A stretch of 64,000 nt of DNA, from contig CAMAUZ010000001.1 of assembly GCA_945861535.1 (NCBI GenBank), positions 62,001-126,000 on the forward strand. Direction: 5' to 3'. A program made the translations under genes and the position numbers. Under the pieces are notes generated by a model, which made no database searches, was not told the DNA's origin, and saw only the letters and a list, made by a program, of their open reading frames with translations. This document shows positions 15,793-61,844 of the stretch, one piece after another; positions within the stretch are counted from its first letter, which is position 1, and each line of letters opens with the position of its first letter. The stretch is from Akkermansia muciniphila (GTDB lineage: Bacteria; Verrucomicrobiota; Verrucomicrobiia; Limisphaerales; BJHT01).

Positions 15793-15799
15793 GCGGGCG

Positions 15800-15908
15800 G
15801 AGTGCGCCCGTCCCCGGGCGCAGCGAGGTGGAGCGCAGTGAGGCGTGGGAAAAATCCGGTGGCCTGTGTGCGTGCGGACGTCGCTGCGGCCGGGGACGGC
15901 CGCACTCC
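15800..15908. repeat. Inverted-repeat element family G, copy 1
   Basis: The element starts GAGTGCGCCCGTCCCCGGGC and ends with a GCCGGGGACGGCCGCACTC block. Inside is a conserved GAGCGCAGTGAGGCGTGG segment. Other copies are at 27221-27331, 57846-57957 and 61736-61844. It ends seven bases before the stop codon of the adjacent isomerase gene. Confidence 0.85.
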
Positions 15909-15915
15909 GAGCACG

Positions 15916-24127: not shown

Positions 24128-24217
24128 AATCCGTTTGTGTCTCCGCAGCCGCCGGTTCGTGGACTACGGCGCTTCTGCCGCTTCCGCCCTGAACCGAGAC
24201 TCTGCAAATCCTCCCTC

Positions 24218-24250
24218 CCCATCCGTGTCCATCCGCATCCAACCGTGGTT
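24218..24250. repeat. Half element of family K
   Basis: CCATCCGTGTCCATCCGCAT followed by CCAACCGTGGTT is the right arm of the element complete at 57772-58010. No matching left arm is evident close by. Confidence 0.6.
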
Positions 24251-24406
24251 TACCCTCTGTTTCCACCACCGTTCCGGTGCGGTCGGCGCGAATGCCTTTG
24301 ACCCGCCCTCGCCCTTTTCCTAAAAAGACCGCCGCCGAAACTCAGCGTGTCCGCACGAGCGCCCGACTCGGAGTTAGCAAACCAAAACTCATCACCCCAA
24401 CCTCCT

Positions 24407-27220: not shown

Positions 27221-27331
27221 CGGAGCGCGCCCGTCCCCGGGTGCAGCGGCGTGGAGCGCCGGAAGGCGCAGGAAAATTCCGACGACTATCGAGCGTGCGG
27301 AAGCCGCTGCGGCCGGGACGGCCGCGCTCCG
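27221..27331. repeat. Inverted-repeat element family G, copy 2
   Basis: It starts GGAGCGCGCCCGTCCCCGGG, continues with GTGGAGCGCCGGAAGGCGC and ends CGGCCGGGACGGCCGCGCTC. It lies between the lipoprotein gene and the ROK gene. Confidence 0.8.
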
Positions 27332-34248: not shown

Positions 34249-34782
34249 ATGTCTGATGACTTGTCCATGCCTTCTGATTCGCCGCCACTGATCGCGCCCG
34301 TAGCCGCTCCCATGCCTGCCGCAAACCCGCATGTCGTCGGCGAGGGTTATGAGTTCGACGCGGTGCGGGCGCAACTGGGGGGGCAGGCGGCGCCGCCTTA
34401 TTTTGTCATCCACCGGGGGGGCGTGATTGTGGGATTGTGTCTGGGGTTGACGTGGAATCCGCGCGCCGAGAGTGATCCGTGTGAGGTGTGGGTGGGACGC
34501 AAGGGTGATCTGGCCAAGTGGGGAGCCAAGCTGGCGGAGACTACCGGGCCGCTGCCGGTCTATGTGCGACGCGTGGAGGGTGGTAAGTGGATTTATACCG
34601 GTTTGTATGAAGTGACTGGGAGCAGCACCGAGCCAGATGTCATCCGGCCGAGGCTTCAGCCGCCAGTCATCACGGTAATCTCCCGGATAGTCTTTCTGCA
34701 GCGGTTTGGCACGGCCCGTGTCGCGCCGGTGGCGGCGGCTGATTCTGCGGCTGGGATTTCAACCACGGATGGACAGGGATGA
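34249..34782 (+). CDS. Hypothetical protein, 177 aa, PUA/SRA-like pattern
   Basis: From ATG 34249. Residues of about 1-30 are a Pro/Ala-rich linker; the remainder is a compact beta-rich domain: PPYFVIHRGGVIVGLCLGLT, PCEVWVGRKGDLAKWGAKLA, LPVYVRRVEGGKWIYTGLYE and IVFLQRFG. The W-x-Y-x-G-x-Y stretch next to V-x-V-R is reminiscent of small DNA/RNA-binding or SRA/PUA-like folds, but this is a pattern resemblance only. The next gene encodes the VF530 DNA-binding-type protein. The last residues (ISTTDGQG) come from repeat K2. No family assigned. Confidence 0.6.
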   Translation: MSDDLSMPSDSPPLIAPVAAPMPAANPHVVGEGYEFDAVRAQLGGQAAPPYFVIHRGGVIVGLCLGLTWNPRAESDPCEVWVGRKGDLAKWGAKLAETTGPLPVYVRRVEGGKWIYTGLYEVTGSSTEPDVIRPRLQPPVITVISRIVFLQRFGTARVAPVAAADSAAGISTTDGQG

Positions 34783-34858
34783 GTACGGATTACTGCGGTG
34801 TGGTGGGGTTTCCCGAGCGGTTGTTTTCATCCGTGTTACTCGGTTTCAAGCCGTGGTT
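34761..34858. repeat. Inverted-repeat element family K, copy 2
   Basis: Left arm AACCACGGATGGACAGGGAT, then GAGTACGGATTAC; right arm CATCCGTGTTACTCGGTTTC, then AAGCCGTGGTTTG. It overlaps the end of the 177-residue gene. Confidence 0.78.
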
Positions 34859-56825: not shown

Positions 56826-57752
56826 ATGAAAACCATTTTGCTGGGAAAAAGTTCGTTGCGTTCGAGTCGTCTGGCCTACGGCTGCTGGCGCATTGCGCCG
56901 ACCGAGGAGGCGGGGCGGACGCTGGGTCGCGCTGCGATTCTGGCGGCGTACGAGGCCGGCTACACGTTGTTCGACCATGCGGACATTTATTGCGACGGGC
57001 GCGCGGAACAGGCGTTTGGTGCGGTGTTGCGTGACGTGCCGGAGCTGCGCGCGGGCGTCGTCATTGCCACCAAGTGCGGCATTCGCAAACCGGGCGAGCC
57101 GTCGCCGGACGCGCCGGTGCGTTACGATTTTTCCCGGTCGCACATTGTCTGGTCGTGCGAGCAGTCGCTGCGGCGGCTGGGGATCGAGACGATTGATTTG
57201 TACCAGTTGCACCGACCGGACTGGATGATGAATCCCGAGGAGGTTGCGGCGGCGTTCGCGCAGTTGCGCGAGCAGGGCAAGGTCCGCGAGTTCGGCGTGA
57301 GCAATTTCCGGCCGTCGCAGGTGACGGCGTTGCAGCGCGCGCTGCCCTTTCCTCTGGCGGTGAATCAGGTCGAGATCAGCCTGGCGTGCCTCGGCAGTTT
57401 CAACGACGGCACGCTGGATCAGTGTCTCGCGGAGCGGATCACGCCGCTGGCGTGGAGTCCGCTGGGCGGCGGTTTGCTGGCGGATGGCGCGCGGAAGTTG
57501 CTGCCTTCGCAAGAGCGCTACGACGTGACGCGAATCGTTGCGGAACTCGACGCGCAGGCGCGGACGCTCGGGACCACGCGCGGCAATGTCGCGCTGGCGT
57601 GGCTGCTGAAACATCCGGCCGGGATCGTGCCGTTGGTCGGCTCGACGAAGCCGGAAAAAATTCGCGAGGCCGCCGGGGCCGAGCCGGTCGAGCTGGCGCG
57701 CGAGCAGTGGTATCGGCTGTTGGAGGCTTCGCTCGGCGCGCCGTTGCCCTGA
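56826..57752 (+). CDS. Aldo/keto reductase
   Basis: The 308-residue TIM-barrel oxidoreductase has the catalytic tetrad in place: D in GYTLFDHADIY with Y, K in VIATKCG and H in DLYQLHRPDWM. Further family landmarks are GKVREFGVSNF, LAWSPLGGGLL and the C-terminal VGSTKPEKIREAAGA, which binds NADP(H). The pattern is close to the YdhF-type subgroup. It reduces or oxidises aldehydes and ketones; substrate unknown. Confidence 0.95.
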   Translation: MKTILLGKSSLRSSRLAYGCWRIAPTEEAGRTLGRAAILAAYEAGYTLFDHADIYCDGRAEQAFGAVLRDVPELRAGVVIATKCGIRKPGEPSPDAPVRYDFSRSHIVWSCEQSLRRLGIETIDLYQLHRPDWMMNPEEVAAAFAQLREQGKVREFGVSNFRPSQVTALQRALPFPLAVNQVEISLACLGSFNDGTLDQCLAERITPLAWSPLGGGLLADGARKLLPSQERYDVTRIVAELDAQARTLGTTRGNVALAWLLKHPAGIVPLVGSTKPEKIREAAGAEPVELAREQWYRLLEASLGAPLP

Positions 57753-57771
57753 GTCGAGCGCAGAAATTTTT

Positions 57772-58010
57772 CACCACGGATGGACACGGATAAACACGGA
57801 TGGGGAGGGGGCGGATTTTTTACGGGCGCGTGCGACCAGCAACCTCGGAGTGCGGCCGTGCTCGGCCGCAGCGACATCCGCCCGCACGGGGGCCGCAGGA
57901 ATCCGCTGAAGCCTCACGGCGCTTCACCTTGCTGCGCCCGCGGACGGGCGCACTCCGCACGCTGGTCCCGCCGCGTTCCCATCCGTGTTCATTCGCATCC
58001 CTTCGTGGTT
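57772..58010. repeat. Inverted-repeat element family K, copy 3, with element G3 nested inside
   Basis: Left arm CACCACGGATGGACACGGAT, then AAACACGGATGGG; right arm CCCATCCGTGTTCATTCGCA, then TCCCTTCGTGGTTTT. A complete family G element occupies 57846-57957 within its centre. Confidence 0.85.
57846..57957. repeat. Inverted-repeat element family G, copy 3
   Basis: Opposite orientation to the other copies: it starts CGGAGTGCGGCCGTGCTCGG and ends CCCGCGGACGGGCGCACTCC, with CGCTTCACCTTGCTGCGCC inside. It is nested inside element K3. Confidence 0.85.
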
Positions 58011-58052
58011 TTCAAACACCCCAGCCTTCGTTCGGATTAACCCGCATTCATC

Positions 58053-59096
58053 ATGTCCACCCCTGAACAACTCGGTTTTCACATGCCCGCGGAATGGGAG
58101 CGTCACGCCGGCACTTGGTTCACCTGGCCGCGGCCCGAAGGCATCAGTTTTCCCGACAAATACGAACCGGTGCCGGATGTCTATGCTGCCTTGATCCGCG
58201 AACTCGTCGCGGTCGAGGAGGTACACATCAATGTCTGGAATGCCGAGAAGGAGGCGTGGGTGCGCGGACTCTTGACCGCGCGGCGTGTACCGCTGGAGCG
58301 CGTGCGGTTTCATCATTTCCCGGCGTATGAACCGTGGTGCCGCGATCATGGACCGATTTTCGTGGTGCGCGAACGCGACGGTCGCCGGGAGCGCGCAGTG
58401 GTGGATTGGGCTTACAACGCGTGGGGCGGCAAGTATCCGCCGTTCGATCTCGACGACGCGGTGCCGCAACATGTCGCGAAGCTGCGCGGCCTGCCGTTGT
58501 TCTCGCCGGGCATCGTGATGGAAGGCGGCGCGCTCGAGGTGAACGGACGCGGCACGGTGCTCACGACGGAGGCGTGTCTGCTGAATCCCAATCGCAACCC
58601 GCATCTCAATCGCGCGCAGATCGAGCAGTATCTCCGCGATTATCTGGGCGTGACCAACGTGCTGTGGCTCGGCGACGGGATTGTCGGTGATGACACCGAC
58701 GGGCATGTGGATGACCTCACGCGGTTCGTCAACGCGACGACGGTGGTGACCGTCGTGGAGGAAGATCCGGCGGATGAAAACTACGCGTTGCTGCAGGACA
58801 ATCTGCTCCGGTTGCGCACGATGAAGGATCAGGACGGCGCGCCCTTGCGGATCGTCGAGTTGCCGATGCCGGGCGTGGTGGAATACGACGGACAGCGGCT
58901 GCCGGCGAGCTACGCGAATTTTTACATCGCGAACGAACTGGTGCTGGTGCCGACGTATCGGCATGCGAACGACCGGCGGGCGCTGGAGATTTTGCAGCGG
59001 GAGTTTCCGCAGCGGCGGGTGGTGGGGATTGATTCGACGGAGTTGATCTGGGGGCTGGGATCGTTCCATTGCATCAGCCAGCAGGAGCCGGTGTAG
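58053..59096 (+). CDS. aguA: Agmatine deiminase / peptidylarginine-deiminase-family enzyme
   Basis: The 347-residue protein matches agmatine deiminase (agmatine to N-carbamoylputrescine and ammonia), a step in putrescine synthesis. Family motifs: MPAEWERHAGTWFTWP near the N-terminus, WCRDHGPIFVV, WAYNAWGGKY, GIVMEGGALEVNG, GDDTDGHVDDLTRF with the catalytic His/Asp, SYANFYIANE and the C-terminal GLGSFHC with C340 as nucleophile. Length is typical (about 345-370). The carbamoylputrescine amidase gene is not in the window, so a broader role remains possible. Confidence 0.93.
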   Translation: MSTPEQLGFHMPAEWERHAGTWFTWPRPEGISFPDKYEPVPDVYAALIRELVAVEEVHINVWNAEKEAWVRGLLTARRVPLERVRFHHFPAYEPWCRDHGPIFVVRERDGRRERAVVDWAYNAWGGKYPPFDLDDAVPQHVAKLRGLPLFSPGIVMEGGALEVNGRGTVLTTEACLLNPNRNPHLNRAQIEQYLRDYLGVTNVLWLGDGIVGDDTDGHVDDLTRFVNATTVVTVVEEDPADENYALLQDNLLRLRTMKDQDGAPLRIVELPMPGVVEYDGQRLPASYANFYIANELVLVPTYRHANDRRALEILQREFPQRRVVGIDSTELIWGLGSFHCISQQEPV

Positions 59097-61735: not shown

Positions 61736-61844
61736 GGAGTGCGCCCGTCCCCGGGCGCAGCAAGGTGAAGCGCAGTGAGGCGTGGAAAAATTGCGGGGCC
61801 TGCGGGCGTGCGGACATCGCTGCGGCCGAGGACGGTCGCACTGC
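61736..61844. repeat. Inverted-repeat element family G, copy 4
   Basis: GGAGTGCGCCCGTCCCCGGG at the left, GTGAAGCGCAGTGAGGCGTG inside, and GCTGCGGCCGAGGACGGTCG followed by CACTGC at the right. It lies between carA and the thioredoxin gene. Confidence 0.85.

Follow-up and report, generated by a model that had tools for sequence, protein, structure and literature searches.

How two inverted repeats come to lie one inside the other between two bacterial genes, whether they form one unit, and which of them arrived first are the questions raised by a 300-bp intergenic gap in the window studied here, i.e., the whole 64-kb stretch of DNA analyzed, which belongs to the draft genome (7.94 Mb in 169 contigs; internal label G000) of an uncultured Verrucomicrobiota bacterium. 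An earlier note on this DNA had placed a complete element of one repeat family, G, between the two arms of an element of another, K (this copy is termed K3), and had concluded that K arrived before G and that G can insert into K, taking this as an argument for active movement at some time.

Organization of the K3 locus

The gap is flanked by two co-directional genes, and two nested inverted repeats occupy most of it. The features of the locus and the further K and G copies of the window are listed below; the products of the two genes are presumed from sequence features.

56826 to 57752, + strand: upstream gene, ORF of 308 aa, presumably aldo/keto reductase
57765 to 57813, + strand: left arm of K (K profile, 54.1 bits)
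57814 to 57845, no strand: part of the K loop left of G, 32 bp, matched by neither the K nor the G profile
57846 to 57957, + strand: complete G element, 112 bp (G profile, 88.9 bits; ends aligned in 20 copies)
57958 to 57968, no strand: part of the K loop right of G, 11 bp
57969 to 58016, - strand: right arm of K, degraded (K profile, 22.9 bits)
58053 to 59096, + strand: downstream gene, ORF of 347 aa, presumably agmatine deiminase
15799 to 15909, 27222 to 27331, and 61736 to 61844: further G copies, no K in the same gap
24211 to 24252: further K arm, single (K profile)
34756 to 34790 and 34825 to 34858: further K arms, forming a short-looped pair (K profile)

The presence of a complete G between the K arms was confirmed by the profiles of both families, by the aligned ends of G, and by the lack of any K match in reversed sequence. 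The nesting holds with slightly wider bounds than had been given for K, the profile span being 57765 to 58016 instead of 57772 to 58010. The outer arms (57773 to 57814 and 57968 to 58009) are 79% complementary over 42 nt and enclose the inner inverted repeat (57846 to 57872 and 57931 to 57957; 85%). The left arm turns its outer end to the aldo/keto reductase gene, 12 bp past the stop codon, and the right arm turns its outer end to the agmatine deiminase gene; in a sister species of the same genus, the two arms score 55.5 and 18.0 bits, respectively. G itself comprises two GC-rich, GGAG-tagged palindromes in inverted order, and its removal leaves a K loop of 32 + 11 = 43 bp. At least 48 matches to the locus were found in the genome, mainly to its G part (40 scored of 283 candidates), and Rfam gave no match up to an E value of 1. 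The agmatine deiminase is at most 82% identical to its best named relatives, which come from metagenome-assembled Verrucomicrobiota; records of this genome itself were possibly left out of that list.

Build, copies, and position of K

The arms of K are composed of 10-nt units (CCACGGATGG ACACGGATAA ACACGGATGGGG). A profile built from 31 arms detected 24 arms at E values of ≤1 in an unselected sample of 800 kb (contigs C1 to C4), and none in the same sequence reversed. Adding 40 loci picked for K or G gave a 921-kb set, which is thus partly selected and holds 65 K arms at E values of ≤0.01, 21 of them from the unselected 800 kb. When two arms were neighbors within 1 kb in this set, they were convergent in 17 of 18 cases. 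Seven of the 17 pairs have short loops of 9, 41, 44, 45, 48, 52, and 63 bp, i.e., six of the seven lie within 41 to 63 bp, and the remaining 10 have long loops of 131 to 755 bp. The copies of K lacking G for which the earlier note had called are found among these short-looped pairs, and K pairs elsewhere are either empty or contain other repeat families. Once the recognized guest is removed, the loop shrinks to 43 bp at K3 and, in three further copies with a guest, to 57, 60, and 65 bp. A special likeness between the paired arms of one copy was considered and dropped, as arms of the same copy are no more alike than arms of different copies (0.628 versus 0.643; 1,592 of 2,000 shuffles reach the value). 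Some arms (e.g., at L031, L035, and C1:212183) end inwards with GGATGAAAACC(A/G)AGC and not with GGATGGGGA, as if two kinds of arm existed. At about positions 1290 to 1430 of locus L028 (G000 C103), we noted an inverted repeat that is built like K and that the sister species lacks; its arms (AACCACTAACCGGCACTAACTGGCACTAAT...) likewise consist of 10-nt units and have AACCAC at the outer end.

Gene positions were obtained with a simple purpose-made gene finder, which classified 83% of the sequence as coding and recovered both neighbors of K3. Genes flank 60 of the 65 arms on both sides; for these, the median distance to a gene is 31.5 bp at the outer end of K and 267.5 bp at its inner end. The outer end, AACCAC, points to genes of either orientation: to a 3′ end in 31 arms and to a 5′ end in 29. 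Other repeats, defined as sequences with three or more matches elsewhere (baseline, 59 of 400 random 200-bp pieces), were present within 200 bp of an arm on the inner side in 40 of 65 cases and on the outer side in 2 of 65 in the 921-kb set; the corresponding values were 14 and 1 of 21 in the unselected sample and 20 and 1 of 31 for unpaired arms. This contrast arises largely because coding sequence flanks the outer side of K.

Among 288 sampled genomes of the phylum, 22 contain a strict K pattern, including the present one, and its spread is patchy. The pattern has 60 sites in the present genome and 51 in one genome from another family, in which pairing is less regular, 4 of 10 neighboring pairs being convergent (25 loci; 5 of 30 were left out as overlapping). 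MITEs are short, noncoding elements with inverted ends and many dispersed copies, and K, being short, noncoding, and dispersed in many copies with inverted ends, resembles them; it is unlike them in that target-site duplications were absent from the 17 pairs, the direct similarity of the flanks equaling that of shuffles, and in that no autonomous partner was found at the scanned Y1 transposase and RAYT loci, none of which contained K; the K pairs considered had their arms within 1 kb of each other.

G resembles a REPIN

Judged by its anatomy, G appears to be a REPIN-like, GGAG-tagged element: it shows two REP palindromes in inverted order and occurs in many dispersed intergenic copies. Its ends (CGGAG...CTCCG) align with small changes in all 20 aligned copies, whose flanks are unrelated. 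We found 33 copies or fragments in the 921-kb set, which is partly selected for G, and 14 in the unselected 800 kb; some of the copies stand in tandem. The number of tandem copies is higher in the sister species at L005, L013, L015, L016, and L017 (the contig of the present genome ends soon after L017), and at L003 three tandem copies are seen here versus a fragment in the sister.

The model for REP-associated transposases, NF047646, detected five loci at E values of ≤1, one of them above the cut-off; two proteins reached 78.1 and 59.1 bits, the cut-off being 80. Tagged palindromes were sought at four of the five loci, and these four RAYT-type genes (L097/L274, L098/L275, L099/L277, and L276) each lie next to their own family of GGAG- or GTAG-tagged palindromes. 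The GGAG tag of G recurs in the palindromes at three of the four RAYT loci of this genome (L274, L275, and L276), and the fourth (L277) has GTAG. At the Y1 and RAYT loci tested in this draft assembly, from which the gene in question is possibly missing, no RAYT gene was flanked by a complete G; half a G lies near the Y1 transposase locus L094. The G profile did not match the palindromes at the L098 RAYT locus. A global alignment of the two scored 22.5 versus 5.0 for shuffles (standard deviation, 4.0), and it did so in both orientations, so that the score may be carried by the ends; a kinship of G with these palindromes was dropped, given the orientation-independent score and the missing profile match.

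Inverted, tagged palindromes, dispersed copies, tandem arrays, and the presence of RAYT-type genes in the same genome are features that G shares with the REPIN/RAYT system as described in PMC3116915, where singlets are treated as remnants of REPINs. Unlike in that description, the tag is GGAG and not GTAG (for GTAG tags, see PMC6006769), and a RAYT gene flanked by the complete element was not found at the loci tested. Presumably, G was moved by a RAYT acting in trans.

K and G are separate elements

Among the 33 G copies of the 921-kb set, two share their gap with K, K3 being one of them, and both lie within the K arms. K is present in 17 of 525 gaps and in 6,894 of 136,388 intergenic bases; 11 gaps contain G and one contains both, versus 0.55 expected. 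An enrichment of G in K gaps was therefore dropped. The count fits chance, and the nesting of G in K consequently requires no special affinity. Counted by locus, K accompanies G at 2 of 18 loci, one of them K3.

That the arms of K carry G and the whole moves together as one composite would accord with the same K[G] being present at K3 in both species and with the position of both gap-sharing G copies inside the arms. It is contradicted by the small number of G copies with K in their gap and by the K pairs that are empty or filled by other families. Moreover, at the second K[G] (L004) the loop remainder is 65 bp versus 43 bp at K3, and the sister frame at this position, i.e., the pair of K arms, holds no G but D, another palindromic element described below. 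The same G inside K at various sites, as expected of a composite, was not observed. We regard a composite as very improbable, the empty K copies and the G copies lacking K having largely refuted it: K and G are separate elements.

Junctions

The comparison of junctions for duplicated bases, which the earlier note had proposed as a check, yielded none for either family. Relative to shuffles, no target duplication was seen at 19 G copies (9 of 28 were left out as tandem or without clear ends) or at the 17 K pairs, and the inverted similarity of the flanks of G and K did not exceed shuffles. The sequences GACCAGC and GCTGGTC around the G of K3 had suggested that G generally lands at the tips of hairpins; this idea was discarded, as the signal was not above shuffles. 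Movement of the IS200/RAYT type is compatible with an absence of target duplications. The missing duplications fit such movement and are equally expected at old, decayed sites.

Comparison with a sister species and other genomes

In the sister species (G001), the whole K3 locus, including K[G], aligns with 1,077 of 1,202 columns identical (90%) and a single gap. As K[G] is common to both species, the insertion at K3 predates their split. The two genes were found together in 16 genomes belonging to other families of the order, and none of the 16 has a K or G profile match between them; 14 of these gaps measure -1 to 104 bp and two measure 183 and 229 bp. The 183-bp gap (L115) contains text that looks K-like by eye and has no profile match, and the 229-bp gap (L119; G026) between the same two genes holds a different inverted repeat of short tandem units (AAATCCGAAATCCGAA...).

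For the usual order of events, 24 further K loci were compared with the sister. Three arms near locus ends were left out, and 33 of 38 arms could be scored (for three, the outer flank was not found, and two were cut by contig ends). Both species share 22 of the 33 arms. In this comparison, which covers K loci only, the 100 bp of interior adjoining a shared arm are unaligned at 15 of 22 arms and aligned at 7, of which K3 contributes two. The other 11 arms are missing or unrecognized in G001, including one that is displaced (L050) and one that can be discerned by eye below the threshold (L031). At L040, the frame is present in both species and holds three G copies (77 to 85 bits) in the sister and none here; at L026, it holds G here and D in the sister. 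The differing interiors, together with L040, speak against K arms that always enclose the same G, the case that the earlier note had named as its refutation. L034, with D in both species and a K arm here only, does not fit a strict rule of K first. Of 14 G loci, 8 have G in both species, 5 have none found in G001, and 1 has a fragment there. Several loci carry K, and several carry G, in only one of the two species, so that each family has undergone movement or loss after the species separated. Clean junctions of filled and empty G sites were not obtained between the two species, the gaps being too rearranged.

Two further loci deserve mention. At L022 (G000 C3; L222 in the sister), the left K arm is present only here and the right one only in the sister, with different contents, as if a K pair had lost one arm in each lineage. 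Within the K arms of L040 (G000 C7; about positions 1030 to 1500), an inverted repeat (ACCACAGAGACACGATGAACACAGAG...) encloses a GGAG-headed palindrome, giving three levels by eye.

The claims of the earlier note on order and movement can be assessed accordingly. K before G is supported in general, as judged from empty K copies and from shared frames with other contents. At K3, K is probably older than G; the sister has the same K[G], and no genome with K and without G at this site was found among those compared. Movement or loss since the split is evident for both families, K3 itself having been filled before it, and nothing points to present activity.

D elements inside K frames

D is a palindromic element of 190 bp (copy L043:1271-1460), and its head, TTTGGAGTGCGG, resembles that of G. 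At 25 K loci, a full-length D was found in the sister only at 10 and in both species at two (L034 and L035); 9 of the 10 sister-only copies lie beside a K arm that the sister has kept. Such copies possibly represent insertions there or losses here, and differences between filled and empty frames in general can alternatively be losses in the present genome. The D copy at L050 (G000 C36:12481-12818) is whole in the sister and consists here of two fragments separated by about 170 bp. In total, at least 43 full-length matches to D were counted in the sister and about half that number in the present genome.

The association was quantified with D copies picked irrespective of K, a K arm being scored within 250 bp; the sister sample of 29 derives from its 30 best loci, and 2 of 25 loci of the present genome had no D of at least 150 bp. 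D faced the inner side of a K arm in 10 of 21 cases in this genome and in 11 of 29 in the sister, and the outer side in 0 of 50. From the share of K in the intergenic bases, about 1.1 and 1.5 cases would be expected, i.e., D lies about ten times above expectation (binomial, 2e-8 and 8e-8 under a null set by this share, and 1e-5 and 7e-5 under twice this share). Arm and D are separated by 1 to 147 bp, and the sequence in between is unlike across loci. These varied distances and unlike intervening bases indicate that the sites with D in K did not arise by the copying of a single K[D] unit. No full-length D is present in the unselected 800 kb, which has 21 K arms.

Discussion

The history that we favor, with a probability of about 75%, is that K, a dispersed inverted-repeat element with a basic loop of about 45 bp, would have inserted into a short gap between two genes in an ancestor of the genus, and that G, a REPIN-like dimer of a type linked to RAYTs, would then have entered the K loop before the two sampled species diverged. 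K loops would serve more generally as settling places for small palindromic elements, the arms persisting near genes and the contents changing.

The opposite order, in which K arms formed around a G already in place or were added to it later, could draw on L034 with its shared D and its K arm in the present genome only; we consider it very improbable, given that empty K loops match the size of K3 without G and that shared frames have different contents. How guests come to lie within K is a question on which two further explanations bear. The hairpin loop of K may be a preferred landing site that attracts REP-type palindromes, including G. The concentration of D inside frames and its absence from their outer sides speak for this, as do the remainders next to D, which differ in sequence between loci and look like separate landings, and published cases of REP dimers within palindromes. 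G, however, is not enriched in K gaps, its flanks show no inverted complementarity above shuffles, the spread of arm-to-D distances indicates no fixed site, and no full-length D accompanies the 21 arms of the unselected sample, so that we hold such attraction to be possible at rather less than even odds. Alternatively, K merely widened a tight gap, and later insertions were tolerated within it and selected against nearer to genes. The short outer and long inner distances of K from genes and the chance-level rate of G within K gaps agree with this reading, which in our estimate falls a little short of an even chance: D exceeds the base-share expectation about tenfold, and 8 of 26 G copies without K lie only 6 to 26 bp from a gene, showing that proximity to genes is not always purged.

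A broader proposal, which we advance tentatively and at less than even odds, is that K may belong to a class of gene-hugging frames whose loop is preferred by certain REP-type palindromes, chiefly D, with frames that last and guests that turn over. If this is true, what lies in a gap would be replaced time and again between sister species within a frame that is itself old, and K3 with its G would be one filled frame.

Three families of REP dimers, GTAG-15, GTAG-23, and CGTC-1, provide the closest precedents; we take their hosts to be Anabaena variabilis, Thermomicrobium roseum, and Halothiobacillus neapolitanus, respectively. Di Nocera, De Gregorio, and Rocco describe these dimers as lying inside longer palindromes, and the passages of their article on A. 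variabilis and H. neapolitanus report no empty target palindromes (PMC3733652). The present locus likewise has a REP-type dimer inside a longer repeated palindrome; unlike in the cases described there, the arms of K consist of 10-nt tandem units, K also occurs empty, and it holds several families. Tobes and Pareja (PMC1525189) further describe insertion sequences that use REPs as their targets; as there, a palindromic repeat receives another mobile element, the guest here being a small noncoding palindrome and not an insertion sequence. Searches for K-like strings, Verrucomicrobia repeats, and MITE nesting did not reveal the K family in print, which is weak evidence, and searches of the literature on Verrucomicrobia and RAYTs and on cyanobacterial tandem repeats gave nothing relevant beyond PMC3733652. 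The nesting of G in K is a fresh example of a kind already published and is ordinary by itself. The comparison of two species shows how small repeats stack between bacterial genes, with arms often shared and contents that differ, and it provides a set of orthologous loci at which one can test how REP-type elements choose their targets and turn over.
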